A DNA stretch of 64,000 nucleotides from Alphaproteobacteria bacterium. GTDB lineage: Bacteria > Pseudomonadota > Alphaproteobacteria > SP197. The position numbers were made by a program, and so were the translations under genes. Location: NCBI GenBank assembly GCA_016869675.1, contig VGDP01000012.1:1-64000 (forward strand). Reading direction: 5' to 3'. Under the pieces are notes generated by a model. The model was not told where the DNA came from and ran no database searches. It saw only the letters and a program-made list of their open reading frames with translations. This document shows, in pieces, positions 39,917 to 56,823 of the stretch. The stretch's first letter is position 1; every line of letters begins with the position of its first letter.

Positions 39917-41473
39917 TCAAGCGCGTTCGGCGACGCCGCCCTCGCCGACCGCCAGCGCGGTCAGGGTGCGTTCGTCGTTGGCCATGCGCCACGAGATCAT
40001 GCGCTGGGCGTAGCCCAGAACGTCGGCGGCGCGCGACGGATCGCCGGCCAGGTCGTGGAACTGGCCGGGATCGGCCTCAAGATCAAAGAACAGCGGCGGC
40101 AGCGCCGTGAAGTGCACGTACTTGCCGCGCCGGTCGCGCAGCACGTTGAGCGTGCACTGGTCGAGCCCGATGCCGAGCGCCTGTTCGATCGCCGGATCGC
40201 GCACGTCGCGGTAGTCGTACTCCCAGTGCACGTCCTGGCGCCAATCGGCCGGCGGCGCGCCGTGCAGGAAGGGAACGAGCGAGCGCCCGTCGCACTGGCG
40301 CGGCGCCGGCAGGCCGAGCGCGTCAAGGATTGTCGGCATGGTGTCGATGGTCTCGGTGAACGCCTCGACCACCTGGCCGCGCGTCGCGTCCGCCGTCGCG
40401 CGCGGATCGCGCACGATCATGGGGATGTGGAACGCCGGGTCGAAGTACGCGGTCTTGCCGCACAGGAAGTGGTCGCCCAGGTTCTCGCCGTGGTCGCAGG
40501 TGAAGATCACCAGTGTGTCGTCCCAGCGCCCCAGCGCCTTCAGGTGCGCGACCAGCCGGCCGACATGGTGATCGAGTTCCGTCATCAGGGCGAAGTAAGT
40601 CGCCATGAGTTGGCGGTGATGGTGGTCGGTCACGGCCGAGCCCGAGGTGTAGTCGGGGATGTAGAAGCGGCCCTCGGCGCGGGCGTAGTTCTCGATCAGG
40701 TACGCGAGCAGCGGGTGCTGGCGCGCCTCGGCCGCCGCGCTGGCGGCGCGCACCGGCGCCGGCACCGCGTCGGGGTGGTAGAGCGCGTTGTAGGGCTCGG
40801 GCGCCGTGAACGGCCAATGGGGCCGCAGGTACGCCTGGTGCACCAGCCAAGGCCGGTCGCCCTGCAACGCCAGGAAGCCGATCGCCGCGTCGGTCTGGAA
40901 CGCGGTGTCGCTGTGCTCGGCCGTGTAGCGCGGCGGCGCGAAGGTCCAGCCGCGTTCCGCCGCGCCGGGGTAACCGGGCCGGGGCGTGTAGATGCCGTAG
41001 GGTTCGGCCGGCACGTCGTAGCCCTTGGCGGCGAGCCACGCGCGCCACGGCCCGAACGACGGCCCCATGACCAGCGTCGGCACGAAGCCAGGCATCGCCC
41101 GCTCGTAGGTGCCGAGCTCGGGGTCGTCAGGGGCGCGGCCGCGCGGATCGGAGCTGGTATCGGTGTAGCCGAACAGGTGCGGCTCGAGCCCCGCCTTGCG
41201 CACCTCCTTGGCGACGTTGGTGAAACGCGCGTCGAGCGGCGTGCCGTTGCGCACCGACCGGTGGTTCTGCAGGTACATGCCGGTCAGCAGCGAACAACGC
41301 GCCGGGCCGCACGGGCTGGCCTGAGTGTAGTGGTTGCGGAACAGCACGCCCTCGGCCGCCAGGGCGTCGAGGTTGGGCGTGCGCACCACCGGATGGCCTA
41401 ACACCGACAGGGCATCGCCGCGCCATTGGTCGGCGGCGATCAGCAGAACGTTGCGGATGCGGTCCCTGGCCAT
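39917..41473 (-). CDS. Type I sulfatase / phosphonate monoester hydrolase-like enzyme
   Basis: 518-residue alkaline-phosphatase-superfamily enzyme. The formylglycine site is Cys55 in SPCGPARCSLLTG (CxPxR), the metal Asp15 in LIAADQWRGD, and the second metal pair in FTCDHGENLGDH. MYLQNHRSVRNGTPLD is characteristic of the phosphonate monoester hydrolase/arylsulfatase branch, which hydrolyses phosphate and sulfate mono- and diesters. Activity would need a formylglycine-generating system elsewhere. No signal peptide is visible, so it is cytoplasmic. Confidence 0.92.
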   Translation of the reverse strand: MARDRIRNVLLIAADQWRGDALSVLGHPVVRTPNLDALAAEGVLFRNHYTQASPCGPARCSLLTGMYLQNHRSVRNGTPLDARFTNVAKEVRKAGLEPHLFGYTDTSSDPRGRAPDDPELGTYERAMPGFVPTLVMGPSFGPWRAWLAAKGYDVPAEPYGIYTPRPGYPGAAERGWTFAPPRYTAEHSDTAFQTDAAIGFLALQGDRPWLVHQAYLRPHWPFTAPEPYNALYHPDAVPAPVRAASAAAEARQHPLLAYLIENYARAEGRFYIPDYTSGSAVTDHHHRQLMATYFALMTELDHHVGRLVAHLKALGRWDDTLVIFTCDHGENLGDHFLCGKTAYFDPAFHIPMIVRDPRATADATRGQVVEAFTETIDTMPTILDALGLPAPRQCDGRSLVPFLHGAPPADWRQDVHWEYDYRDVRDPAIEQALGIGLDQCTLNVLRDRRGKYVHFTALPPLFFDLEADPGQFHDLAGDPSRAADVLGYAQRMISWRMANDERTLTALAVGEGGVAERA

Positions 41474-41502
41474 AACGGCGGACTATGCCGGCGGGCGCAC
41501 CG

Positions 41503-42560
41503 TTACGCCAGCGCGGCGCGCACCAGGTCGTGGAAGTGGCGCACGCCGTGCTCGCTCCAGCCCGAGCGGGCCTCGGGCTGCTCGATGAGCACGCCGCCGC
41601 GGTAGCCCGGCGAGGCCAGGCCGCGTTGCACCGCCTCGACCATGCCCACGTCCTCGGCGAACACGCGGTCGAACAATTCGTTGAAGCGGCCCATGGCGTC
41701 GGTCGCGGCGCCCATGGCGTAAACCGTGCGCACCTGACGCGTGCGGTCGGGCGCCAGCGGCTCATGGCTGACAGCCACGAAGGAATCCGCGTCCAGCGCG
41801 GCGCTGCCCTGTCGGCGTTGGGCGACTGCCACCACGCCGACAGCCCGATCATCGTGGCGTGGTTTACGTCGCGGTCGGCGGTGCCGGGCGGCACGCGGCC
41901 CTGGCGGCTCCAGCCTTCACCGACCACATGCTTCCACGTCGAGAGGTCGAAGTTGCCGAACGACGGATGAGCCACGTCGCAGTGGTAGCATTCCAGGTAG
42001 TTATCGATGATCGCCTTCCAGTTCGCGGCGATCGTCGCCTCGCGCCGGTAGATCGGCATCATGACGTCGAGGTTCGGATGGTCGCGCCGCAGCATCGCCT
42101 CGAGCGCGCCCAGCAGGGACTGCGCAGGCATGGGGGTCGCGGCGTCGAGGCAGACCATCACGAAGCCCGCGAAAATGACCGAGCGCACCGGTTCGAGCAC
42201 GAAGCAGCGGTGGTCGAATCCCGCCAGATCGTCGGCGTCGGGTGCGGTCCGCAGGCTGCCATCCAGGCCGTAGGTCCGGGCGTGGTAGGGACAGGTCAAC
42301 GACACCTTGAACCGGCCGCGGCCATCGAGCAAGCGATGGGCCCGGTGCTGGCACACATTGTGGAACGCGCGCACCGCGCCATCGGTGCCGTGGACGACGA
42401 AGACGTCGCGGCCGCCGACGTCGAGGGTCACGTAGTCCCCAGGCGTGGCCACGTCCGAGCGGTGGCAGGCGATCAGCCACGACCGGCCGAACACGGCGGA
42501 ACGTTCGCGCTCGAACACCTGAGCGTCCGTGTACCAGGACGCGGGCAACGGAACGTTCAT
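41503..42560 (-). pseudogene. GbcA-like Rieske oxygenase alpha subunit, frameshifted
   Basis: The upstream part (from MNVPLPASWYTDAQ) has intact Rieske ligands Cys70, His72, Cys90 and His93 and the catalytic-iron His pair in LECYHCDVAHPSF. Around 41805-41815 the frame shifts by one base: past WWQSPNADR the original frame turns into nonsense, and the true C-terminal part (SAALDADSFVAVSHEPL, then EDVGMVEAVQRGLASPGY) lies in another frame, ending at 41503. All the expected protein is otherwise present, so this is a single lesion or a base-call error. The start has AAGGAGG upstream. The group includes glycine-betaine, choline and related quaternary-amine oxygenases. Confidence 0.85.
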
Positions 42561-42956: not shown

Positions 42957-43693
42957 GCCGTCCCGACCCAGCCCGGCACGTCGGAAAACACCCCGGCGAC
43001 ACCGAGCGCGAACAGCCGGCGCGCCTCGGCCACGTCGTTGACCGTGTAGGCGCGCAAGGCGTAGCCGGCCGCGAGCACGTCGCGCGCCAGTTCGGCGGTG
43101 ATGAACCCCCACCAGGTATGCACCGCGACCGCGCCCACGCGCGCCGCGAGTGCCTCCCACTCAGCGCACCGGTCGTTCACCAGCACGGCGCGGTCAAGCG
43201 CGGGGGCCTGTAGGCGCGCGGCCTCAAGCGCCTCGGGGCTGAAGCTGGAGAGCAGCGGCGGCGGCAGCGACGCGGGCCAGGCGCGCGCGAGCCGCGCCCC
43301 CACGACGCGCCCGGTCTCGGCCTCGCACCCCGGGCATGGCTTGAGCTCGACGTTGGCACCCAGCCCCAGCGCGGCCAGCGTGTCCAGCGCCGCGTCGAGC
43401 GTCGGGATGGGTTCGCCGGCGAACGCCGGCCCCCACCAGGAGCCGGCGTCGAGCCGCGTCAGCTCGGCGAGTGTGCGCATCCGCACCGGGCCAGATCCGT
43501 TGGTCGTGCGCTCCAGCGTGTCGTCGTGCATCACGATCGGCACGTCGTCGGCCGAAAGCTTGATGTCGAACTCGACCCACGTGGCCCCTTCGGCCTTGGC
43601 CTTGCGCAGCCCGGCCAGCGTGTTCTCGGGCGCCAGCCGCGCCGCGCCGCGATGACCGATGACGCGCGGCGGTTGAACACTGCCAATCGTCAC
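42953..43693 (-). CDS. Glycerophosphodiester phosphodiesterase (UgpQ-like)
   Basis: 246 residues from a GTG start. RVIGHRGAARLAPENTL carries the first catalytic His and Arg, EFDIKLSADDVPIVMHDDTL the metal Glu/Asp and the second His, and NVELKPCPG the third acidic position. It hydrolyses glycerophosphodiesters to glycerol-3-phosphate and an alcohol such as choline or ethanolamine; no signal peptide, so cytoplasmic. GTGA overlaps at both ends tie it to the nitronate monooxygenase and the small secreted protein. Confidence 0.93.
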   Translation of the reverse strand: MTIGSVQPPRVIGHRGAARLAPENTLAGLRKAKAEGATWVEFDIKLSADDVPIVMHDDTLERTTNGSGPVRMRTLAELTRLDAGSWWGPAFAGEPIPTLDAALDTLAALGLGANVELKPCPGCEAETGRVVGARLARAWPASLPPPLLSSFSPEALEAARLQAPALDRAVLVNDRCAEWEALAARVGAVAVHTWWGFITAELARDVLAAGYALRAYTVNDVAEARRLFALGVAGVFSDVPGWVGTA

Positions 43694-44685
43694 GTGGGCC
43701 CCAGCTTCGCGAGAGTCGCTTCCGCCTGGGCCAGCATGCGCGCCATGATGACGCGCGCCGGTACCACCTTGGTGATGAGCCCGACGCCCTGGCCGGCATA
43801 GAGGCACATGGCGTCCAGATCGCCCGTCATGTCGAAGCTCGGCGAATCGAAGTCGTAGCGCAGCACGGACGAGCCGTCGCCGCGCTGCCCGACCACGTCG
43901 CCCTCGCCGGGTCTCTGTCCCGGATCAGGCCGACCGGCCGCTTCCCAGGCCGCGACGGTGGCGTTGCGCAGGGCGCGATGGGGCGCGCGCGGCCATCCGA
44001 TATCGAACAGCTCGGTGTGCACCGTTTCGGTCTCGTCCGCCGCGATCAGCCGTTCGCGGTAGCGCGGGTGCGCCAAGGATTCCTCGGCCACGAGGAACGC
44101 CGTGCCGATCCAGGCAGCCTGGGCGCCCAACGCCAGCACGGCGGCGAGCCCGCGACCATCCGCGATGCCGCCGGCGGCGATCACGGGTGCCGCCGACGCC
44201 GCGTCGACCACGCGCGGCACGAGTGCCAGCGTCGCGACCTGGCCCCAGACATGGCCGCCGGCCTCCCAGCCCTGGGCGACGATCACGTCGACGCCGGCCG
44301 CGACGGACCGCCTTGCCTCGGCGGCGCTGGCGACGGTGTGCAGGACCAGCGCGCCGCGCCGGTGGCATGCCGACACATAGGGTGCCGGGTCGCCCCAGAA
44401 GAACGAGACGATGCGCACGTCTTCGTCGAGGGCAACGGCCAGCCGCTCGCTCTGGTCGGTGTCGAGCACGAGGTTGACCCCGACGGGGCGATCCGTCAGC
44501 GCCTTGGTGGCACGCAGGTCGGCGCGCATGCCGTCCAACGAGGTCCACGACAAACCCAGCATGCCGAGCCCGCCGGCCTCGGCGACCGCAGCCGCGGTGG
44601 CGGGGCCGATCGCGCCACCCATGGGCGCCAGCACGATGGGTACGTCGATACCCAGTCGATTGCACAGAGGCGTGCGCAGGGCCAT
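43690..44685 (-). CDS. Nitronate monooxygenase
   Basis: 331 residues. FMN-binding TIM-barrel of the 2-nitropropane dioxygenase family: PIVLAPMGGAIGPATAAAVAEAGGLGMLG at the start (in pieces PIVLAPMGG and EAGGLGMLG), then QGWEAGGHVWG with the catalytic His region, and VIAAGGIADGRGLAAVLALGA. It oxidises alkyl nitronates with O2 using FMN; some relatives act as enoyl reductases. It starts two bases after the large-subunit gene stop, so it belongs to the amidase-like operon. Confidence 0.92.
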   Translation of the reverse strand: MALRTPLCNRLGIDVPIVLAPMGGAIGPATAAAVAEAGGLGMLGLSWTSLDGMRADLRATKALTDRPVGVNLVLDTDQSERLAVALDEDVRIVSFFWGDPAPYVSACHRRGALVLHTVASAAEARRSVAAGVDVIVAQGWEAGGHVWGQVATLALVPRVVDAASAAPVIAAGGIADGRGLAAVLALGAQAAWIGTAFLVAEESLAHPRYRERLIAADETETVHTELFDIGWPRAPHRALRNATVAAWEAAGRPDPGQRPGEGDVVGQRGDGSSVLRYDFDSPSFDMTGDLDAMCLYAGQGVGLITKVVPARVIMARMLAQAEATLAKLGPT

Positions 44686-44687
44686 GG

Positions 44688-46928
44688 TCAGGCGCCGGCG
44701 AACGGCTTCGGATCGAGGAACCGGCGCACCACGTTCTCGGTGATGCGGCTGACGTTGTTCGCGTGACCTTTGTGCGCGAGCGAGCCGGCCCAGGCGATCG
44801 ACGAGGTCGAGAACACCGCGCCGCCGCCGGCCATCTCGAAGAACACCATGTCGGCGCGCGCGTTCGGGTGATCGCGCCCGAGCGTGGTGGGGTAGTTGTG
44901 GCCTATCTCCTCGTTGACGATCATGAATGAGTCCGTGTGGTTCTCGGACGAGGCGAGCAGCAGCGTATGTGGCGGCGTGCCGTGCTTGCGGTCGACATAG
45001 TCGAGCTCGAGCCCCGCGGCGGCGCCGCCGATCAACCCGAAGTCGCCGATCCGCTCGTCCTTGCCCACACCCTCGAAGATCCAGGCGGCGCGCGGATCGA
45101 AACTGCCCGGCTTGCGTACGTAGTACGAGCTCATGTCGAAGCCCTGGGCGATGAAGCCGGTGCCAACCAGCTTCTGCGGCGCGCGGCCCGAACGCTGCCA
45201 CAGGCCGCCGAGTTCGCCGGTGAAGCTCATGTGGTATTCGCCCGGTTCGGCGATCCACGAGCGCGAGCCATCCTCGGCGCGGCGCATCTCCATGATGCCC
45301 GGCCGGTCCGGGTGGAACGCCACGCGCCAGTAAAAGCCGTTGGCGCCGGTGTAGATGAACCGGCCGCCGCGGTGGATGTACGCCTCGACCGCGTCGAGCA
45401 TGGGTGTCGAGTAGTATTCAGGGTGCGTGCCGGTCATGACGCACGTGTAGCGTTGCAGCAGGTCAACGCCTTCGGCGTGCAGGTCCTCGTCGGTGACCAC
45501 GTCGTAGGCGATGCCCTTGGCCTCCAGCCATTCGGTGACGTGAGTGTCGGCGGCGTACTGCCAGAGCGGCCCCTTCAGACGCATGTTGAGGATTGGGCGC
45601 AGGCGCGAGGAGTAGGCGACGCCCGAACGATCGGTGTGCAGGTCGTACATGCTGAGCCCGACCTCGGGATGATCGTTCAGGTACATCATGTCCGCACCGA
45701 TGATGGACAGCGCGTTGGTCATGACCTCGGCGTTCTCAGAATCGAGCGCCTCGCGGAAGTTGGCGTAGGCCAGATAGCTGGCGGTCGGCACCAGGAACAA
45801 GAGCTTGGCCGTCGCCTGCCCGCGCGGCGGACGAACGAAGAAGGGGATGGAATCCTCGGCCCCCTCGGTCTCGACCAGGGCGGCGTAGAAGCCGCTGCGC
45901 AGGCCCTGGGGCGCGGTGAAGGTGAAGTCGGTGGCCCAGCCGGCGTCGTCTAGGTCGTCGTCGTGGAAATGGATGGCGCCGTAATGGTCGGGTCGCTGGC
46001 GCCAATCGCCCGACGCGCCGGTCCAGGCCCAGCCGCGCATGGCGCGCGTGGGCGTGTTCACCACCGTGCCGTGCAGCCGGTTGGTCGAGGTGTCGACGAT
46101 GCGGTCGCCCGCCATGTCGCGCGCGAAATCCCACGCGGCGACCACCGCGGCGCGCAAGGAGGGCGCGGCCGGATCGTCGCGCAGCCGCTCGATCTCGGCG
46201 CGGTCGAGCGCGCGGTTGGCCACGCGCGCCGCGTCGATCTTGCCGTTGAACATGGCGCCGGCGGTCACCGCCCCGCCGCCCTGCTCGGTCAGGATCGTCG
46301 CGAACGAGAACGGCGCGTCGGGGCGCCCGACGTAGTTCTTGGCGACGGTCGCGCACACGGTGGCGGCGTCGTCCACGTGCGGGAAGCATTCCACCGGCTC
46401 CTGGATCAGCGTCGTCTGGCCGGTCGCCGCGTCGTAGCTGCCGGCGACCAGGTACCAGGCGCGATCGACCAGCTTCTTGCCCGAGACGAGCAGCGCGGGC
46501 TTGCCCTTGCCGTCGCCGATGGCAAACAGGAGCTGGCCCTTGTCGTCGATGAACAGGCCGAAGCCGCACTCGCGCGGCTCCGACCACCAGCCGAGCAGGC
46601 CCTGCCAGCCCTTGGCCACCGTAGTCGGCCAGATCATGGCCTGGACCGTCACGCTCTCGAGCCGCGCGAGCGCCGGGCCGGCGCGGACGCTGATCCACGA
46701 GCCGGTGCGGATCGGCTGGTGCCGGGCCTTGTGGGTGTCCTCGGCCGGTGCCGGGAAGGGTTCCAGCTTCAGCCCCGGTCCGGCCGGTTGGTCGTCGCCA
46801 CACACCACGCGCACGATGCGCGCCCGATAGTCCGCGACCCCCGGTTCGCAGCTCACCTTGAACGCGATCGTCTCGCCCGGCGCGATGACGATCTGGTCGG
46901 CGTAGCCGACGATGGTCTTGGTCTGCAT
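44688..46928 (-). CDS. N,N-dimethylformamidase large-subunit homologue (copy A)
   Basis: 746 residues. The N-terminal third has a lectin/LamG-like beta-sandwich (TVQAMIWPTTV to VAAWDFARDM), then the catalytic domain with ASYLAYANF (Tyr385/388), LSMYDLHTD (Tyr428) and MTGTHPEYYS (His502, Glu504). Paracoccus dimethylformamidase uses a two-tyrosine, one-carboxylate iron centre, and these residues are the likely equivalents. It would hydrolyse an N,N-dialkyl amide. The ATG at 46928 has CAGGAG upstream. It is the third large-subunit gene of the operon and is separated from copy B by a palindromic repeat. Confidence 0.9.
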   Translation of the reverse strand: MQTKTIVGYADQIVIAPGETIAFKVSCEPGVADYRARIVRVVCGDDQPAGPGLKLEPFPAPAEDTHKARHQPIRTGSWISVRAGPALARLESVTVQAMIWPTTVAKGWQGLLGWWSEPRECGFGLFIDDKGQLLFAIGDGKGKPALLVSGKKLVDRAWYLVAGSYDAATGQTTLIQEPVECFPHVDDAATVCATVAKNYVGRPDAPFSFATILTEQGGGAVTAGAMFNGKIDAARVANRALDRAEIERLRDDPAAPSLRAAVVAAWDFARDMAGDRIVDTSTNRLHGTVVNTPTRAMRGWAWTGASGDWRQRPDHYGAIHFHDDDLDDAGWATDFTFTAPQGLRSGFYAALVETEGAEDSIPFFVRPPRGQATAKLLFLVPTASYLAYANFREALDSENAEVMTNALSIIGADMMYLNDHPEVGLSMYDLHTDRSGVAYSSRLRPILNMRLKGPLWQYAADTHVTEWLEAKGIAYDVVTDEDLHAEGVDLLQRYTCVMTGTHPEYYSTPMLDAVEAYIHRGGRFIYTGANGFYWRVAFHPDRPGIMEMRRAEDGSRSWIAEPGEYHMSFTGELGGLWQRSGRAPQKLVGTGFIAQGFDMSSYYVRKPGSFDPRAAWIFEGVGKDERIGDFGLIGGAAAGLELDYVDRKHGTPPHTLLLASSENHTDSFMIVNEEIGHNYPTTLGRDHPNARADMVFFEMAGGGAVFSTSSIAWAGSLAHKGHANNVSRITENVVRRFLDPKPFAGA

Positions 46929-46971
46929 GGTGGGCTCCTGGAACAATTGGAGTCTCATTGGAGTCATGGGC

Positions 46972-47079
46972 TGTCATCCCCGGACGCCGCGTCAGCGGCG
47001 AACCGGGGATCCAGGGCAGGTGAAGCACTGGCCGCCCCTGGATCCCCGGTTCTGGCCTGCGGCCGGCCCGGGGATGACA
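46972..47079. repeat. 108-bp intergenic palindromic repeat element
   Basis: The gap between two large-subunit genes contains nested inverted repeats. The outer pair is TGTCATCCCCGG and CCGGGGATGACA; the inner pair is CCGGGGATCCAGGG (47003-47016) and CCCTGGATCCCCGG (47036-47049). The whole is an imperfect self-complementary element that could fold into a long hairpin. Elements with TGTCATCCCCGG ends are frequent interspersed repeats in Alphaproteobacteria. It may stabilise or attenuate the transcript between copies B and A. I found no second copy in the window. Confidence 0.85.
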
Positions 47080-47110
47080 CGAGATCGGCAACGACCATGA
47101 TGACCTTGCC

Positions 47111-49342
47111 CTAGCGGGGCGGCGGGAACGGCGTCGGGTCGCAGAACCGCCGCACGACGTTCTCGGTGATGCAGCTGACGTTGTTGTCGTAGCGGTTGTG
47201 GAACAGGGCTCCGCCCCAGGCGATCGACGAGGTTGAGAACACGGCGCCGCCCTTCGAGGTTTCGTAGAACACCATGTCGGCGCGCACCATGTCGTTGGCG
47301 TCGCCGCCCAGGAACGGGTAGTTGAACAGCACCTCCTCGTTGACCACCTGGTAGTTCGCGGTGTGACCTTCCGAGCGCGCGACCACCAGGGCGTGCGGCG
47401 GCGAGCCGTTCGTCACGTCGTACCAGTCGAGCTCCCAGCCGGCGGCGCCACCACCCAGGATGCCGAAGTCGCCGATCCTTTCGTCGGCGCCGACGCCGTC
47501 GAAGATCCACGCGGCGCGCGGATCGTGGCTGGCGGGCAGGCGCCGGTAGTAGCTGGACAGGTCGAACCCCTGAGCGACGAAGCCGGTGCCCGCCATGCGC
47601 TGGGGCGGCCGGCCGCTGCGCCTCCACATGCCGCCGTACTCGCCTGTGAAGCTCATGTAGTACTCGCCCGGCTCGGCGGCCCAGGCGCGGCTGCCGTCCT
47701 CGGCGCGTCGCAACTCCATGACTCCCGGCAGTTCGCGATGGTACGCGACACGCCAGTAGAAGCCGTTGGCGCCGAGGTAGATGAACCGCCCGCCCCGTTC
47801 CTTGTAGGCGTCGAGCGCGTCGAGCATCTCCTTGGTGTCGTACTCCGGGTGTGTGCCGGTCATGACGCACGCGTAGGGCGCGATGGCCGCGACGCCTTCG
47901 GTGTGCAGGTCCTCGTCGGTCAGCACGTCGTAGGCGATGCCCCTGGCCTCGAGCCAGTCGGTCACGTGGGTGTCGGCGTTGTACTCCCACAGCGGCCCGC
48001 GCGGGCGCATGTTCAGGATGGGGCGCAGGCGCGAGGTGATGCTGACGCCGCTGCCGTCCGAGTGCATGTCGTAGCAGGACAGGCCGTATTCCGGATGGTT
48101 GTTGAGGAACACATCGGCGCGCGTCAGCACGGAGAACGCGCCGCCGATCAGCTCGCTGTAGCGCCCGGTGCCGAAGTGCGGGTTGGCGTACGCCATGTAG
48201 CTGGCAGTCGACACCAGGAAACAGAGCTTGGCCGTCGTCGTGCCCGCCGGTGGCCGGATCCAAAACGGGATGTGCTCCTCGATGCCGTCGGCGAACAGCC
48301 GCGCGGCGTAGAAGCCGCTGCGCGCGCCGGCCGGTACGGTCAAGGTGAAATCCGCCTGCCAGCCGCAGTCGTAGAGGTCGCTGTCGTGGAAGTGGATGGC
48401 GCCGTAGTGACCGGGCGCCTGCTTCCAGTCCAGCGCCTCGCCGGTCCACAGCGAATCGCGCACGGCGCGCGTGGGCAGGTTGACGAGCCGGCCATCGAGC
48501 CGGTTGGGCGAGGCATCGCGGATGCGGTCCGACATCATATCGGCGGCGAAGTCCCACGCGGCCACCACGTCAGGCGCGATGGTCCGCGGCAACGGCCCGT
48601 GGCGCAGCGCCAGGATGCCGGCGCGATCGAGCGCGCGACGGCTGAGGATCGGGTCGTCGATACGGCCGTTGAAGTGGGCGCCGACCGTGCCGCCGTCGGC
48701 GCGCCCGTCCTCGGACCAGGCGCCGATCAGGAACGGCAGGTCGGCGCGCGCGCCGACGCGCACCTTGGTCGTCGTCTCGACCGCGACCGCGTCGTGGCCG
48801 GGATAGACATCCTGGGGCTCCTGCCACAGGCGGAGCGTGCCCGAGGCCACGTCGAACGCCGCGGCCACCAGGTACCAGCGCCCCGCGTGCACCGGCCGGC
48901 CGCTGCGCAGGAAGCACGTGCCGCCCTTGCCGTCGCCGATGCCCGTGCAGAACTGGCCCTTGTCGTCGATGTAGACGACGAAGCCGCATTCAGAAGGCTC
49001 GACCCACTTGCCCATGACCACCTGCCAGGGCTTGGCCGGCAGGGTCGGCATGACCATGGCCTGTGCCGTGAAGCTGGTCAGGCCGTCGATCAGCGGGCTC
49101 GGCGGCATGATGGCGTAGGACCCGGCGTGGATCGACTGGAACCGCGCCTTGTAACGCCCATCGACCGAGGTCTTGAGCGGCTCGACCTTGTAGCCGGGGC
49201 TCTGCGGCCCATCGTCGCCGCAGATCACGCGCACGATGGTTGCGTCGTAGGACTCGACGCCTTGGGTGCTGACCATGAACTTGATCGTTTCGCCCGGCCG
49301 CACGCTGATGCGGTCGGAATAGCCGGTGATGAACCCCGCCAC
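47111..49342 (-). CDS. N,N-dimethylformamidase large-subunit homologue (copy B)
   Basis: 743 residues from a GTG start with GAAGGAGG five bases upstream; an earlier in-frame start would run into copy C and is unlikely. The architecture matches copy A: beta-sandwich N-terminal third, then ASYMAYANP, LSCYDMHSD and MTGTHPEYDT (His498, Glu500). Iron-site residues are retained, while surrounding positions differ from copies A and C, so substrate range may differ. It lies 11 bases after copy C. Confidence 0.9.
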   Translation of the reverse strand: MAGFITGYSDRISVRPGETIKFMVSTQGVESYDATIVRVICGDDGPQSPGYKVEPLKTSVDGRYKARFQSIHAGSYAIMPPSPLIDGLTSFTAQAMVMPTLPAKPWQVVMGKWVEPSECGFVVYIDDKGQFCTGIGDGKGGTCFLRSGRPVHAGRWYLVAAAFDVASGTLRLWQEPQDVYPGHDAVAVETTTKVRVGARADLPFLIGAWSEDGRADGGTVGAHFNGRIDDPILSRRALDRAGILALRHGPLPRTIAPDVVAAWDFAADMMSDRIRDASPNRLDGRLVNLPTRAVRDSLWTGEALDWKQAPGHYGAIHFHDSDLYDCGWQADFTLTVPAGARSGFYAARLFADGIEEHIPFWIRPPAGTTTAKLCFLVSTASYMAYANPHFGTGRYSELIGGAFSVLTRADVFLNNHPEYGLSCYDMHSDGSGVSITSRLRPILNMRPRGPLWEYNADTHVTDWLEARGIAYDVLTDEDLHTEGVAAIAPYACVMTGTHPEYDTKEMLDALDAYKERGGRFIYLGANGFYWRVAYHRELPGVMELRRAEDGSRAWAAEPGEYYMSFTGEYGGMWRRSGRPPQRMAGTGFVAQGFDLSSYYRRLPASHDPRAAWIFDGVGADERIGDFGILGGGAAGWELDWYDVTNGSPPHALVVARSEGHTANYQVVNEEVLFNYPFLGGDANDMVRADMVFYETSKGGAVFSTSSIAWGGALFHNRYDNNVSCITENVVRRFCDPTPFPPPR

Positions 49343-49353
49343 CTTCGCCTCCT

Positions 49354-51576
49354 TCAGAACGACGCCGGGTCGGTGAACCGGCGCAGCACGTTGTCGGTAA
49401 CGCGGCTGACGTTGTTGTCGTAGCCGGCGTGGGCGAGGCTGGCGGCCCAGATGATCGAGCCCGTCGAGAACACGGCGCCGCCGTTGGGGCCCTCGAAGAA
49501 CACCATCTCGGCGCGCACGCCATCGTCCTCCAACCCGTTGATCGCCGGGTGGTGGAACAGGGTCTCCTCGGGCACCAGCAGGTAGTAGTACGAGTGCGCC
49601 TCGGAACGCGCGACGACGAGCGCATGCGGCGGCGTACCCAGCGCCGGATCGGCGGCGTCGAGTTCGAAGCCCGCAGCGCCGCCGCCCAGGATGCCGAAAT
49701 CGCCGATCCGCTCGTCCTCGGCCAAGCCGTCGAAGATCCAGGCGGCGCGGGCGCCCCGGCTCGCGGGCGTGCGGCGGTAGTAGGACGAGCGGTCGAAGCC
49801 GGTCACCACCGTGCCGATGCCGACCAGCCGGTTGGGCGGGCACCCCACCCGGCGCCACAGGCCGCCGAGTTCGCCGGTGAAGGCGTGGTGGTAGGCACCG
49901 GGCTCGGCCGCCCAGTAGCGCGCGCCGGTCTCGGCCCGGCGCACCTCGATCACGTCCGGCAGGTCGCGGTGGAACGCGATGCGCCAGTAGAAGCCGTTGC
50001 CGCCTAGGTACATCAGCCGGCCGCCGCCGCGCAGATACGCGGTCATGGCGTCCCACATGGGCGTCGACCAGTATTCCGGGTGGGCGCCGGTCACCACCAC
50101 GCGGTAGGGCGCCAGCCGATCGACGCCATCGGCGTGGAGGTCGTCGTCGGTCACCACGTCGTAGGCGTGGCCCTTGGCCTCGAGCCAGTCGGTCACGTGG
50201 GTGTCGGCGTTGAACGACCACAGCCCAGTGCGGGGCGCCCAGTTCAGGCACGGGCGCCGGCGCGTGGCGTAGTAGACCGGGCTGCCGTCCACGTGCAGGT
50301 CATAGGCCGAGAGCCCGAGTTCGGGCCGCTCGTAGATCGTCACATCGTCGGCGTCGAGCACGGTCAGGCCACCCATGCGCATCTCGGACGCCTGGTTGAG
50401 CATCGACCACTGGATGTTGACGTAGGCGGTGTAGGTGGCGGTGGAGGCCAGGAAGGCGATGGGCGCGCTCGCCCGGCCCCTGGGTGGGCGGACGACGAAG
50501 GTGGCGAAACTCTCGTCCGCGTCGTTCCAGACGCGGGCGGCGTAGAGCCCGCCGCGCAGGTCCTCGGGCACCGTGAAGGCGAACGACGGCGTCCAGCCGG
50601 CGTCGTAGAGATCGTCCTCGTGGAAGTGGATGGCGCCGTAGTGCGTCGGGTCCTGGCGCCAGTCGTGCACCGCACCGGTCCAGGCGCGACCGGGCACCGC
50701 ACGGGTCGGCAGGTTGACGAGCTCGCCGTGGCGCCGATGCGCCGAACGGTCGTGGATGCCCGTGCCGGGAATATCGTGGCCGAAGTCCCACGCGGCCAGC
50801 ACGCGCGGTTCGAGCGCCGCCGGCACCGGCCAGCCGGCCAGCGCCTGGATCGCGGCGCGGTCGAGTGCTGTATCGTCCAGGCGCGGCGCCTCGATCCGGC
50901 CGTTGAAGAAGGCACCCGCGTTCCAGGCGCCGTCCGTCTCGGTCACGATGGTCGCCATGGTCAGCGGCACGCTGGGGCGGCCGAGTTCCCGCACCGTGGG
51001 TGCCATGGCGACGTCGGCGTCGAGGTCGAGCCGCTTGTGTTCGCTCTGGACCTCCTGGATCAGGCGGAGCGCGCGCGCGTCACGGTCGTAAGTCGCGGCG
51101 ATCAGGTACCACAGGCCGGCGACCAGCGGCTTGCCGGCGCGCAGCACGTCGACCTCGCCCTTGCCGTCGCCGATGGCGACCAGAACCTGGGCCTTGTCGT
51201 CGATGAACAGGCCGAAGCCGCACTCGGTCGGCTCGGACCACCAGCCGATCAGCCCCTGCCAGCCGCGCGCGGGCGTGGTTGGCATGACGTAGGCCTGCAG
51301 CGTGAAGGCGCCATCGACCGCCCAGGTTCCCGGCACCACGGCGTAGGACCCGGCGGCGACCGGCTGGCGCCGGGCGTCGGCCACGCGGCCGCGCCCGCCC
51401 GCGACCGCGTCCACCTTGTAGCCGGCGCCCCCGGGCGCGGCATCGCCGCAGCGGACGCGGATGATTTCGTAGTCGAAGGGTGAGCCGGTCTCACTGCTGG
51501 CCATGAAGCGCACGGTCTCGCCGGGTGCGGCGGCGACCCGGTCGGCGTAGACCAGCAGCGACTTGCGCGGCGCCAT
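49354..51576 (-). CDS. N,N-dimethylformamidase large-subunit homologue (copy C)
   Basis: 740 residues. Same fold and motifs: ATYTAYVNIQ, LSAYDLHVD and VTGAHPEYWS (His499, Glu501). It begins four bases after the stop of the small-subunit gene, so copy C is the partner most directly co-translated with it. Divergence from A and B is substantial across the N-terminal sandwich, while the stretch ERIGDFGILGGGAAG is nearly shared with B. Confidence 0.9.
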   Translation of the reverse strand: MAPRKSLLVYADRVAAAPGETVRFMASSETGSPFDYEIIRVRCGDAAPGGAGYKVDAVAGGRGRVADARRQPVAAGSYAVVPGTWAVDGAFTLQAYVMPTTPARGWQGLIGWWSEPTECGFGLFIDDKAQVLVAIGDGKGEVDVLRAGKPLVAGLWYLIAATYDRDARALRLIQEVQSEHKRLDLDADVAMAPTVRELGRPSVPLTMATIVTETDGAWNAGAFFNGRIEAPRLDDTALDRAAIQALAGWPVPAALEPRVLAAWDFGHDIPGTGIHDRSAHRRHGELVNLPTRAVPGRAWTGAVHDWRQDPTHYGAIHFHEDDLYDAGWTPSFAFTVPEDLRGGLYAARVWNDADESFATFVVRPPRGRASAPIAFLASTATYTAYVNIQWSMLNQASEMRMGGLTVLDADDVTIYERPELGLSAYDLHVDGSPVYYATRRRPCLNWAPRTGLWSFNADTHVTDWLEAKGHAYDVVTDDDLHADGVDRLAPYRVVVTGAHPEYWSTPMWDAMTAYLRGGGRLMYLGGNGFYWRIAFHRDLPDVIEVRRAETGARYWAAEPGAYHHAFTGELGGLWRRVGCPPNRLVGIGTVVTGFDRSSYYRRTPASRGARAAWIFDGLAEDERIGDFGILGGGAAGFELDAADPALGTPPHALVVARSEAHSYYYLLVPEETLFHHPAINGLEDDGVRAEMVFFEGPNGGAVFSTGSIIWAASLAHAGYDNNVSRVTDNVLRRFTDPASF

Positions 51577-51579
51577 CGT

Positions 51580-51885
51580 TCAGTCGACGGCCAGCTCCTG
51601 CCCGGTGATGCGCTTCCAGCGCCTCTTGAACACCACCCACTCGGCGTCCGCCAGGCTGGTGAATACCTGATCGTGGTGCATGGTGATCGGCTTGCCGCGC
51701 TCACCCGGCAGCTCGGCCAGGATCCACTCCTTGTGCGGCTTGGTGCAGACCAGGACGAACTTGCCCTTCAACGGCTCCCAGCGCATGCGGTTCAGGATGC
51801 GCTGCAGCTCGGCGCTGTGCGGCCCGAACGGGTTCTTCTTGAACTCGCGGGCCAAGTCCGTGCGGCTGGTGTCGATGGGATACAT
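51580..51885 (-). CDS. N,N-dimethylformamidase small-subunit homologue
   Basis: 101 residues starting MYPIDTSRTDLAREFKKNP, with WEPLKGKFVLVCTKPHKEWIL and WVVFKRRWKRITG. This matches the small (alpha) subunit of dimethylformamidase, which pairs with the large subunit and is somewhat longer (about 130 residues) in characterised enzymes. GAGAGGG precedes the ATG. It is the first gene of a leftward operon with three large-subunit genes but only this one small-subunit gene. Confidence 0.85.
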   Translation of the reverse strand: MYPIDTSRTDLAREFKKNPFGPHSAELQRILNRMRWEPLKGKFVLVCTKPHKEWILAELPGERGKPITMHHDQVFTSLADAEWVVFKRRWKRITGQELAVD

Positions 51886-52006: not shown

Positions 52007-53051
52007 ATGGCCGAGGATCAGGCGCCCAGCATCGAGATCGGCACGTTGCGGCATCTGGCCGCGTGGCTGGCCGGCGCGCGCGAGCCTCGCCTTCACCAAC
52101 TACCAGACGGGCAAGCTGTTCCTGATCGGCACCGGGCCCGATGGGCGGCTCAGCGTGTTCGAGCGCACGTTCAACCGCTGCATGGGCCTGGTGGCGGCGG
52201 ACCGCGTGCTGTGGATGAGCTCGCTCTACCAGCTCTGGCGCTTCCAAGACGCGCTGGAGCCCGGTGCTCTGCACAACGGCTACGACCGGCTCTACGTGCC
52301 GCAGGTCGGGTACATCACGGGCGATCTGGACATCCACGACATCGCCATCGTGCCCGACGGCCGCCCGGTGTTCGTCAACACCCTGTTCAGTTGCCTGGCG
52401 ACCGTCAGCGACGCCGCCAGCTTCGTGCCGCTGTGACGGTCGCCGTTCGTCACGCGGCTGGCCGCCGAGGACCGCTGCCACCTGAACGGCCTGGCGCAGC
52501 GAAATGGCCAGCCGGCGTTCGTCACCCTGGCGGGGCGCTCGAACGTGGCCGACGGCTGGCGCGAGAATCGGCGCGATGGCGGCCTGGTGCTGGACGTGGC
52601 GAGCGGCGAGCCGGTGGCGACGGGCCTCTCGATGCCTCATTCGCCGCGCTGGCACGACGACCGGCTGTGGCTGCTCGATTCGGGCAACGGCTGGTTCGGC
52701 CACGTCGATGTGTCGTCCGGCCGGTTCGCGCGCGTCGCCTTCTGCCCCGGCAACGCGCGCGGGCTTGCCTTCGCGGGCGGCTTCGCGGTGATCGGCCTTT
52801 CCTAGCCGCGGGACAACCGTACCTTCAGCGGCCTGGCCCTGGACGACGCGCTCGCCCGCCACGGCGCCGAGGCGCGCTGCGGGCTGCTGGTCGTCAACCT
52901 GGCGACCGGCGATGCCGAGCATTGGCTGCGCCTCGACGGCCTGATCAGCGAACTCTACGACGTGGCGGCGCTGGCCGGGGCGGCGCGGCCCATGGCGTTC
53001 GAATTCCGCTCCGACGAGATCAAACGGACGGTCACCATCGGCACAACCTGA
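52007..53051 (+). pseudogene. TIGR03032-family protein, broken by a frameshift and two stops
   Basis: Pieces of one protein lie in order. An N-terminal start (MAEDQAPSIEIGTLRHLAAW) shifts frame near 52080. It is followed by SLAFTNYQTGKLFLIG to FVPL, a TGA at 52434-52436 where relatives have Trp, then RSPFVTRLAAEDRCHLNGLA to VIGLS, a TAG at 52803-52805, and the tail PRDNRTFSGLALDDALARHG to about 53051. The whole matches TIGR03032, a conserved protein of unknown function with a propeller-like fold. Three lesions make inactivation certain unless the sequence is poor. Confidence 0.85.
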
Positions 53052-53116: not shown

Positions 53117-55129
53117 ATGCGCGTCGGCGTCGAGGTGGGTGGCACGTTCACGGACCTGGTGGCGATCGACGGCGGCACGGTACGCGTGGCCAAGGTGCCG
53201 AGCGTGCCGCGCCGCCCGGACGAAGGGGCGTTCCAGGCGTTGCAGGCCGGCAAGCTGGACCTGGGCGCCATCAAGGACCTCGTCCACGGCTCGACGGTGG
53301 GCACCAACGCGGTGCTCGAGCGCAAGGGCGCGCGGGTCGCGTTCCTGACCACGGCGGGCTTCCGCGATCTGCTGTTCCTGCAGCGCCACGACCGGCGCAA
53401 CATCTACGACCTGGCGTACAGGAAGCCGACACCGGTGGTGCGGCGGCGCGACTGCTACGAGGTGCCCGAGCGCATGCTGGCGGACGGCACGGCGGAGCGA
53501 CCCTTCGACGCGGCGGCCTTCGAGCGCGATGTGATCCCGCGCCTGAAGGCAGCGGGTTACGAGGCCGTGTCCGTGTGCCTGCTGAACGCCTACGCCAACC
53601 CGGCCCACGAGGAGGCGGTGCGCGACCTGGTGCGGCGCCACCTGCCGGGCGCCTCTATCACCATCTCGTCGGACGTGACGCGCGAATTCCGCGAGTACGA
53701 GCGCGCCTCGACCACCACGCTCGCCGCATACCTCCAGCCGGTCATCGCCGGCTATCTGGCGCGCTTCGAGGACACGCTCGGCCGCCACGGCTTCAAGGGT
53801 CGCTTCAGCGTCATGCAGTCCAACGGCGGCCGCCTGCCCGCCGAGGGCATGCGGCGCAACGCCATCACCTCGCTGTTCTCGGGCCCGGCCGCCGGCGTGA
53901 TGGGCGCGGCGCGCCAGGCGGGGCTCAGCGGCTATGCCAATCTCATTACCTTCGACATGGGCGGCACCTCGACCGACGTGTGCCTGGTCGAGAACGGCCG
54001 GCCGTCGCTGGCCGCCGAGACCGATATCGATGGCCTGCCGGTGCGCCTGCCGGTGCTCGATATCGTGACCGTCGGCGCCGGCGGCGGCAGCATCATCTGG
54101 TGCGATGAGGGCGGCATGCTGCGCGTCGGGCCCGAAAGCGCGGGCGCCGACCCGGGCCCAGCCTGCTACGGGCGCGGCGGGCGTCGGCCCACCATCACCG
54201 ACGCCCACGTGGCGCGTGGCACCATCCGGCCCGATGCGCTGCTGGGCGGCAACTTGCGGATCGACGCGGCCGCCGCGGCGTCGGCGCTGGCCCCCATCGC
54301 CGAGGCCTTCGGTCTTTCGCCCGAGGACATGGCGGACAGCGCGCTGCGCGTCGCCGAGGCCAACATCGTGCGCGCGATCCAGCTCGTGACCACCGAACGC
54401 GCCCGCGACCCGCGCGATTTCGTGCTGGTGCCGTTCGGCGGCGCCGGGCCGCTGCACGCCGCCAAGGTGGCGGCGGACCTGGGCGTGGGCACCATCGTGG
54501 TGCCGCCCAACGCCGGTGTCATCTCGGCCTACGGGCTGATCGCGTCGGACTTCGTGCACTACGACACCATGACCCGACGCATCGCGCTCGACGACGGGGC
54601 ACCCGCGGCAGTGGCCGAGGTGTTCCGCGCCATGCGCGACGGCGCGCGCGCACGCTTCGAGGCGCTCGGCCTGGCCAGGAGCGCGTGCTACACCTTCGCC
54701 TTGCAGATGCGCTTCGTCGGCCAGGCGTTCGAACTGCCGGTCGAGGTCGACGCCGAACGCGCCGAGCGCCTGACCGTGGCCGAGCTGGCGGAACTGTTCG
54801 GCAAGGTGCACGAGAGCATCTTCTTCCATGGCGCCGGCACCGGCCGGCCCATCGAGATCGTCGCCTACCGCCTGGGCATCGTGGCGCCGCAGACCGACGT
54901 GCCGGCCCTGACCGAGGGCGGTGGCGACGCCGGGCGCACCGGCGACTTCGCGCTCTACGACAATCGGGAACGGCAGACCGGCCGGCTGATGGCGCGCGGA
55001 GCGTTGGCCCACGGCGTCGCGCTGGCGGGCCCCGCCCTGCTGGAGGACCCGACCGCCACGGTCTACGTACCGCGGGGCTGGACGGCGCGGCACGACAGCC
55101 ACGACAATCTCGTCATGACACGGGGGTAG
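53117..55129 (+). CDS. hyuA: N-methylhydantoinase A / acetone-carboxylase-type subunit HyuA
   Basis: 670 residues, full length. RVGVEVGGTFTDLVAI and LITFDMGGTSTDVCLV are the two actin-like ATP-binding motifs; GAGGGSIIW and VPFGGAGPLHAAKVA follow in the typical order. With HyuB it hydrolyses hydantoins, oxoproline-like lactams or related amides with ATP. The ATG start shows no strong Shine-Dalgarno. The stop lies six bases before the first HyuB gene. Confidence 0.94.
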   Translation: MRVGVEVGGTFTDLVAIDGGTVRVAKVPSVPRRPDEGAFQALQAGKLDLGAIKDLVHGSTVGTNAVLERKGARVAFLTTAGFRDLLFLQRHDRRNIYDLAYRKPTPVVRRRDCYEVPERMLADGTAERPFDAAAFERDVIPRLKAAGYEAVSVCLLNAYANPAHEEAVRDLVRRHLPGASITISSDVTREFREYERASTTTLAAYLQPVIAGYLARFEDTLGRHGFKGRFSVMQSNGGRLPAEGMRRNAITSLFSGPAAGVMGAARQAGLSGYANLITFDMGGTSTDVCLVENGRPSLAAETDIDGLPVRLPVLDIVTVGAGGGSIIWCDEGGMLRVGPESAGADPGPACYGRGGRRPTITDAHVARGTIRPDALLGGNLRIDAAAAASALAPIAEAFGLSPEDMADSALRVAEANIVRAIQLVTTERARDPRDFVLVPFGGAGPLHAAKVAADLGVGTIVVPPNAGVISAYGLIASDFVHYDTMTRRIALDDGAPAAVAEVFRAMRDGARARFEALGLARSACYTFALQMRFVGQAFELPVEVDAERAERLTVAELAELFGKVHESIFFHGAGTGRPIEIVAYRLGIVAPQTDVPALTEGGGDAGRTGDFALYDNRERQTGRLMARGALAHGVALAGPALLEDPTATVYVPRGWTARHDSHDNLVMTRG

Positions 55130-55135
55130 CTTGCC

Positions 55136-56818
55136 ATGGCCATGACCCGCAACCTCGACCCGGCGGATTACGCCGTCATCAGCCAGGCACTCCAGGCGAT
55201 CGGGCGCGAAATGGGCGCCAAGCTGGTGCGCAGCGCCTATTCCACCGTGGTGCGCGAAGCGCGCGACGCCTCGGCCGCCCTGACCGACCGCCACGGCCAC
55301 GTCATCGCCCAGGCCGAACTGATCCCCATGCAGCTCGGCTCGATTGGCGCGACGATCCAGCCCTGCCTGGAGCGATTCCCGGTCGAGACGCTGGAGCCGG
55401 GCGACTTCCTGATCACCAACGACCCCTACCACGGCGGTCAGCACCTGCAGGACGTGTTCATCTTCACACCGATCTTCGTCGACGGCCGGGTCGTCGGGTT
55501 CAGCGCCTCGATCGCGCACCACCTGGACCTCGGCGGCGGCAACCCGGGGCTGAACGCCTCGTCGCGCGACGTCTATCAGGAAGGCATCATCATTCCACCG
55601 TCAAAATACAGCGAGCGGCGCGATTGGAACGGCGGCGGCCTGGAGCGGCTGATCGCCGCCAACGTGCGCGTGCCCGGCCAGACCATCGGCGACTTCTACG
55701 CCCAGTTTGCCGCCAACCACATCGGCGCGGCGCGCGGCGCGCAGTTGTGCGCGCGTTACGGCACCGACACGGTCGAGGCGACCATGGCCGAACTGCAGGA
55801 CTACGCCGAGCGGCGCGTGCGCGCGGCGATCGCCGCCCTGCCCGACGGCACCTACGTGGGCGAGGACGCGCTGGATGACCGCTGGGGCGATGGCGGCACC
55901 CTGACGGTGCGCGCGACGATCACGGTCAAGGGCGACACGCTGGCGGTCGATTTCAAGGGCACGGCCGGACAGGTAGCGTGCCACGTCAACGCGCCCTTCG
56001 CCTCCACGGTCTCGGCGACGCTGTCGTGCCTCAAGGCGGTGCTGACCGGGCCGGACGTGCCGTTCAACGAAGGCGCCAAGCGGCCAATCACCGTGACCGC
56101 GCCCTACGGCTCGATCCTAAACCCGCGGCCGCCGGCGCCGGTGCGCGCGCGCATGAATTCGGCCTACCGGGCCTATGGCGCGGTGATGCGCGCGCTGGGC
56201 CAGGCGGCACCAGACCGCGTCGTCGCCCAGGGCTACGACACCACCTGGGCCGCGGCGCTCAGCTACCTGACGCCGGACGGCTACAAGGTGCACCTGGACA
56301 TCCTGGGCGGTGGACTGGGCGCCGGCAGCCGGTCCGACGGCTGCGACGCGGTCGACGGACCGCTCAGCAACTGCTCGAACACGCCGATCGAGGTTCTGGA
56401 CATGGACTTCGACGCCTACCGCGCCACGGCCTACGAGCTGGTCGCCGACAGCGGCGGGGCCGGGGTGCACCGCGGCGGCGCTGGCTATCGCCGCGCCTAC
56501 GCGGTCGTCACCGACGGCGTCAATTTCGCCACCTACGCCGACCGCTTCCAGCGCGCGCCCCAAGGCTTGGCGGGCGGACGGCCGGGCGCCAGCGCGCTCT
56601 GCCGGGTGCGGCGCGACGGGCAGGTGATCGACGCGGCGATCAACACCGGCATGATCCTGGCGAAGGGCGACACGGTGGAGTTCATCACCGGCGGCGGCGG
56701 CGGTCACGGCGACGGGCGCGCCCGGCCACGCGGTCAGCTGGCCGAGGACATCGCCGATGGCTTGGTCAGCGAGGCGGCGGCCCGGCGCGACTACGGCCTC
56801 GCGCTCGGCGCGGACTGA
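55136..56818 (+). CDS. hyuB: N-methylhydantoinase B subunit HyuB (first copy)
   Basis: 560 residues with all HyuB hallmarks: REMGAKLVRSAYSTVVREARD, then LITNDPYHGGQHLQDVFIF, SIAHHLDLGG and NAPFASTVSATLS, ending GGGGHGDG. It forms the ATP-dependent hydantoinase/oxoprolinase complex with HyuA. It retains the region missing from the remnant at 5.6-6.7 kb. The second copy starts five bases after this stop. Confidence 0.94.
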   Translation: MAMTRNLDPADYAVISQALQAIGREMGAKLVRSAYSTVVREARDASAALTDRHGHVIAQAELIPMQLGSIGATIQPCLERFPVETLEPGDFLITNDPYHGGQHLQDVFIFTPIFVDGRVVGFSASIAHHLDLGGGNPGLNASSRDVYQEGIIIPPSKYSERRDWNGGGLERLIAANVRVPGQTIGDFYAQFAANHIGAARGAQLCARYGTDTVEATMAELQDYAERRVRAAIAALPDGTYVGEDALDDRWGDGGTLTVRATITVKGDTLAVDFKGTAGQVACHVNAPFASTVSATLSCLKAVLTGPDVPFNEGAKRPITVTAPYGSILNPRPPAPVRARMNSAYRAYGAVMRALGQAAPDRVVAQGYDTTWAAALSYLTPDGYKVHLDILGGGLGAGSRSDGCDAVDGPLSNCSNTPIEVLDMDFDAYRATAYELVADSGGAGVHRGGAGYRRAYAVVTDGVNFATYADRFQRAPQGLAGGRPGASALCRVRRDGQVIDAAINTGMILAKGDTVEFITGGGGGHGDGRARPRGQLAEDIADGLVSEAAARRDYGLALGAD

Positions 56819-56823
56819 CCGCG

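Follow-up and report, generated by a model that had tools for sequence, protein, structure and literature searches.

A dimethylformamidase-like operon with one small-subunit gene and three old, divergent large-subunit genes in an alphaproteobacterium

The closest described system to the locus studied here is the N,N-dimethylformamidase (DMFase) of Paracoccus, with one small and one large subunit gene (DmfA1/DmfA2, PDB 6LVB). The available parts of the structural study (PMC7686228) report that Tyr399, Tyr440 and Glu521 hold the iron. Mutating Tyr440, Glu521 or His519 abolished the activity. The same parts describe the large subunit alone as inactive and the alpha2beta2 assembly as dependent on the small subunit. 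The entrance sits between the large and the small subunit, and the pocket is lined by Phe693 of the adjacent large subunit. In the portion available of another study (PMC4543880), a LuxR-type activator (DmfR) is linked to the DMFase genes of pAMI2, and a second dmfA1-dmfA2 locus of Paracoccus aminophilus is not linked to the use of dimethylformamide (DMF). The second relative is N-acetyl-(R)-beta-phenylalanine acylase (PDB 8HUY, 8I59, 8I5A), whose entries list just two chains, A and B, both of them large. DMFase-like enzymes have a rare 2-Tyr-1-Glu iron site, and the role of their small subunit is poorly understood.

We analysed a stretch of 64,000 nucleotides (the window) from the assembly of an uncultured alphaproteobacterium (3.49 Mb, 97 contigs, completeness 100). 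It carries a DMFase-like operon that departs from the gene set of N,N-dimethylformamidase sensu stricto, with one small-subunit gene (S) and three large-subunit genes (L) instead of one and one. In a literature search conducted mostly outside subscription journals, and including the accessible parts of PMC7686228, PMC4543880 and PMC10308929, we found no description of an operon with one small and several large subunits.

The operon and its products

The operon has the order S-A-B-C, with every gene on the minus strand. S is the first gene and encodes 101 amino acids (51580-51885). It is followed by the large subunits A (740 amino acids, 49354-51576), B (743 amino acids, GTG start, 47111-49342) and C (746 amino acids, 44688-46928). 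All four are intact open reading frames, located where the preliminary description had placed them. At the junction of S and A, the TGA stop of S, an ACG and the ATG of A lie in one reading frame. The GTG start of B comes directly after the stop of A and is preceded by AAGGAGG. The gap between B and C has 185 bases, and C has an AGGAG of its own ahead. Its start is most likely the ATG of MQTKT (746 amino acids) and not that of a longer frame of 759 amino acids. Within this gap lies an inverted pair (46973-47078) of a dispersed palindromic repeat, GTCATCCCCGG...CCGGGGATCC. This exact pattern has 10 matches in the genome, including this pair, and its reversed control has 0.

A gene for a nitronate monooxygenase-like FMN enzyme (43690-44685, minus strand; PF03060, E 4.3e-56) has its ATG 2 bases past the stop of C and is likely on the same transcript. 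On the plus strand, divergent from the operon, are hydantoinase A (53117-55129; PF01968, E 2.9e-95) and two hydantoinase B genes (55136-56818 and about 56809-58458; PF02538, E 6.6e-158 and 1.3e-160). Further neighbours encode a Rieske oxygenase, a sulfatase, a phosphodiesterase and an enzyme of the fumarylacetoacetate-hydrolase family. From these neighbour genes, a role of the operon in the breakdown of N-substituted or cyclic amides is plausible. The Rieske oxygenase gene (41127-42560) and the gene divergent from S (52007-52800) look frameshifted, since in both the similarity to their families ends early and fitting frames resume nearby. Either an assembly error or decay could account for this. 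No structural RNAs at Rfam gathering scores and no tRNAs were found within the window.

Each of A, B and C consists of a Pfam DMFA2_C domain (PF20254; E 3e-88, 6.5e-95 and 5.2e-96, respectively) and a pentraxin-like Laminin_G_3 domain (PF13385). No NCBIfam model matches them. They are 53-58% identical to each other in protein and 69-70% in DNA, in agreement with their earlier characterization as divergent. Their identity to the Paracoccus DMFase is about 40%, and they are nearly as similar to the N-acetyl-beta-phenylalanine acylase (E 1.4e-139, TMt 0.89), with which they share the fold and family of the large subunit. The label 'dimethylformamidase' first given to the operon was thus too specific.

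With DMFase, the large subunits share the fold and domains, the 2-Tyr-1-Glu ligands, and the catalytic His and Asn. A, B and C each retain the residues that correspond to Tyr399, Tyr440, Glu521, His519 and Asn547 of DMFase, the first three of which would make up the iron site. By residue mapping, the putative ligands are Y385, Y425 and E501 in A; Y385, Y424 and E500 in B; and Y388, Y428 and E504 in C. The catalytic histidine is H499, H498 and H502, respectively. The residue numbers of the HPE motif had been given correctly before (H499/E501, H498/E500 and H502/E504), along with a probable Tyr/Tyr/Glu site. The position of DMFase Phe693 is occupied by F674 in A, F673 in B and H677 in C. The conservation extends beyond the window: the five residues are kept in 33/33 large subunits of the multi-gene arrays (A, B, C and their orthologues) and in 76/76 large subunits of loci outside them. 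In the family set, Gln stands in place of His519 in two of the 48 large subunits outside the arrays. These counts, like the trees below, were restricted to large subunits with a coverage of at least 520 profile positions in the family set or at least 600 in the other loci.

S has no Pfam or NCBIfam match. A family profile made from 15 sequences matches the DMFase small subunit (6lvb_B) with E 9.9e-6; the single S sequence reaches only E 0.12. A homologous small-subunit gene within the same operon is therefore shared with the DMFase system. The DMFase small subunit has 132 residues against 101 in S, and the match starts at its residue 40. An AF2 model of the S-A read-through has a mean pLDDT of 89.4 and a pTM of 0.87. 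It matches 6lvb_A with TMt 0.93 and 38% identity and, being built as one chain, supports the folds only and not the docking of S on A.

The rest of the genome was searched for other partners. It has 10 DMFA2_C matches, three of which are A, B and C. Another three belong to S+L pairs found elsewhere (contigs 44, 45 and 46), where each S lies immediately ahead of its own L. The remaining matches are one large gene with an internal TAA, one distant member and two fragments. Thus, the count of one small and three large genes stands for the operon, and does not stand genome-wide, given the three further pairs. The genome profile search gave only four S genes and one non-significant match (E 0.24), and a hidden second S for A, B or C was rejected on this result. 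The other three S genes each adjoin their own L, so no other S is obviously free for A, B or C.

Arrays in related genomes and age of the copies

The comparison drew on a set of 61 genomes, 16 of which, including the window genome, belong to the same family. Eleven loci of this family have several large genes after S on a single contig: six with three (the window among them) and five with two. The related family MAGs carry S-L1-L2-L3 or S-L1-L3 operons, and one carries S-B-C. L2 is missing from four arrays. Other arrays are interrupted. A frameshift divides the third large gene of G009. Contig ends fall within L1 in G003 and G007, with pieces that fit S-L1-L3. In G013, L2-L3 are at a contig start, and in G010, S-L1 are at a contig end. 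G002 gave no S match.

The S-B-C operon belongs to G004, the nearest relative carrying B and C (locus L061). Its two large genes are orthologues of B (76% identical) and C (68% identical), and A has no orthologue in this genome. Where the window has A, a short gene pair (L061:5438-6170) lies between S and B, which by eye we take to be antitoxin-like and PIN-toxin-like. The neighbourhood in common with the window includes hydantoinase A/B, GDPD, sulfatase and the nitronate monooxygenase region. Hydantoinase genes adjoin not only L061 but also L070.

The genes groEL and S are close in several genomes. groEL is just upstream of S-L-L(-L) arrays of related genera in six loci (L052-L057), and near another S-L pair in six more (L082, L101, L102, L107, L108, L109). 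The window genome has one groEL, located elsewhere. Either the chaperonin is tied to these enzymes or the linkage is due to chance.

The phylogeny of the large subunits was estimated with a careful tree of 49 of the 82 rows, leaving out redundant and some very long-branched rows. L1, L2 and L3 each form a clade (support 100/100) that matches the position in the operon. B and C each pair with one gene of G004 (100/100 each). A groups with L1/L2 on a long branch (95/95). B, C and L3 are in a larger group that includes other genes (99/96). Forcing A, B and C into one clade cost 257 log-likelihood units (AU p 1.2e-61), and such a clade with the two G004 genes added was also disfavoured (AU p 0.012). 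A recent, species-specific triplication is ruled out by the AU test and by the DNA identity of 69-70% among the three copies. They are old paralogues that co-occur in other genomes of the family, one of the two outcomes that the preliminary description had considered.

The array in the window and those of its relatives seem to be built from two old lineages that they have in common. A lineage alpha (A, L1, L2) would come first and a lineage beta (B, C, L3) last, each with separate later duplications. This two-lineage reading is an inference from the tree, in which the root and the placement of A are not certain.

The gene content of the arrays bears on the possibility that just one of the large subunits is the partner of S, probably A, its closely coupled neighbour. 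In that case B and C would work without S, like the acylase 8huy. Indeed, 8huy and its relatives were deposited with large chains alone. Moreover, some large-subunit clades have no recognisable S nearby (L014, L072, L073, L078, L085, L087, L090, L091, L099 and L105), and a search for a divergent S near such genes in 11 loci at maximum sensitivity found none (best E 2.2). These genes are conserved in the family, with a dN/dS of 0.075 for L072/L073. Together, the clades and the acylase imply that some large subunits may not need S. Nevertheless, G004 keeps S with B and C though A is absent, and S is slow exactly where several large genes follow (see below). We consider an exclusive partnership with one large subunit unlikely.

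S and L are fused in nature. Two family genomes encode both in a single frame (L097:651-3185 and L098:5520-8033), and four more S matches lie inside open frames of 859-911 amino acids in other genomes. The fusion proteins of the family indicate that the two subunits do function together as a unit.

Divergence of S, selection and distribution

We compared the protein divergence of S and L at orthologous loci in pairs of genomes, with 39/50 S rows, those in clear orthologue groups. In the arrays, the S/L divergence ratio is 0.58 (sd 0.14; 56 of the 78 possible pairs, those sharing a large orthologue). The single-partner S-L pairs of Alphaproteobacteria, three of them in the window genome, have homologous S and L genes in the same order, with one L per S. 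In the two main groups of such pairs within the family, the divergence of S equals or exceeds that of L: the ratio is 1.07 in group X (36 pairs) and 1.30 in group Y (28 pairs). Relative to its large subunits, the shared S has changed at roughly half the pace of these single-partner S genes. Four small groups had values of 0.73, 0.81, 1.28 and 1.42. When the same genome pair was compared, the array ratio was lower in 47/47 cases, which are not independent. Five disjoint genome pairs all agree (G000-G004, G001-G005, G003-G007, G008-G014 and G012-G015). Slow change would be expected of an S that has to suit more than one partner. Stronger expression could also cause it, and the large subunits of the arrays are also somewhat slower.

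The dN/dS values of L1, L2, L3, B and C, which unlike A have orthologues to compare with, range from 0.04 to 0.37. All the array copies that could be tested are subject to purifying selection. The kept catalytic residues and these values rule out degenerate copies. The same observations touch a dosage reading, in which the three copies would supply one activity with the same specificity and assembly. Every copy does keep all the catalytic residues. But identity among the copies is no higher than 53-58%, the lineages are conserved each in its own right, and the residues of the pocket loop differ by type, making mere dosage very improbable.

To estimate how rare such operons are, 84,980 genomes of named species were scanned with the array-type S, a scan in which records very close to the window genome may be missing. 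Of 205 confirmed loci, 80 were kept. Two or three large genes follow S in ten of them, and a single typical large gene in the other 70. All of the ten are MAGs from the family of the window genome, and they match family genomes already in the set of relatives. Some of the 70 are cut by contig ends or frameshifted; L161 and L162 are cut arrays of the family. In a class-wide sample, the 20 loci fetched have one S per L throughout, with L151 consisting of two separate S-L pairs. There are weaker exceptions: G237, from another family, has two tandem large genes on a contig of 3.6 kb and an S-L on a different contig, and further loci are described below. At most four candidates were scored per genome in the two wider genome searches, where absences are no proof; 10 genomes were rescored in full. 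A single S followed by several typical large subunits is thus almost, though perhaps not strictly, limited to the family of the window genome.

A divergent large-like gene follows S-L in G532 and in six named loci (five Bradyrhizobium, one Enhydrobacter). It was observed at L241:9240-10766 and at L226, L232, L233, L234, L238 and L239. The matches downstream of S-L in these last six reach 52-57 bits and were not counted as partners. Neither was an extra large-like match of L182, on the opposite strand. The divergent gene after S-L may represent another route to two large subunits per S.

One small subunit and several large subunits

The residue at the position of DMFase Phe693 differs between array types. 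It is readable in 32 of the 33 array sequences and is only F (18) or H (14). L1 and L2 have F and L3 has H (12/12); likewise, A and B have F and C has H. Each array complete on one contig contains one H-type and one or two F-types. Of the arrays of the L1/L3 type that could be read on a single contig, 9/9 have both L1 and L3. Large subunits of other loci (76 sequences) mostly carry T, V, I or A at this position (F in 2, H in 1).

Such a pattern would fit mixed oligomers. In them, an L2S2 unit would be formed by two different large subunits, each lending a loop to the pocket of the other. S would bring one F-type and one H-type large subunit together in an asymmetric hetero-oligomer with swapped pocket residues, and with three paralogues to choose from, four genes would give a combinatorial set of amidohydrolases. 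The pattern fits diversified pockets too. Among 48 large subunits of the family outside the arrays, 14 have F and 7 have H, and those with H are on the L3/C side of the tree. The F/H pattern tracks the tree, so it need not mean pairing. In addition, S-B-C without A, and the four arrays without L2, indicate that no fixed trio is required. Mixed enzymes are a tentative reading, and we regard them as rather doubtful. An enrichment of type-specific sites around the pocket was considered and rejected: the pocket windows have 10/63 such columns and domain III has 61/371 (both 0.16), with no excess over domain III, a result that weighs against the explanation preferred below.

Our preferred explanation, towards which we lean by a little, is a DMFase-like amidohydrolase with a common small subunit that works with several catalytic large subunits, each differing in specificity. 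Each large subunit would form a catalytic L2S2 unit, as in DMFase, with Fe3+ held by Tyr/Tyr/Glu and with the His and Asn adjacent. These units would be mainly homodimeric in L. S, physically shared among them, would stabilise domain III and shape the entrance for the substrate in any large subunit that it binds. As the large subunits drifted apart, one S could have come to support several enzymes for different N-substituted amides. DMF need not be the substrate, because the second dmfA1-dmfA2 locus of Paracoccus aminophilus is not linked to DMF use, and the operon does not imply DMF activity.

In this family, S has stayed together with two or three catalytic partners of old origin, and its own evolution is slowed, which makes these operons a natural set to probe what S recognises. 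The arrays also let one ask whether the dimer of large subunits can be mixed. Finally, they offer a ready panel of amidohydrolases for N-substituted amides, a class of pollutants.
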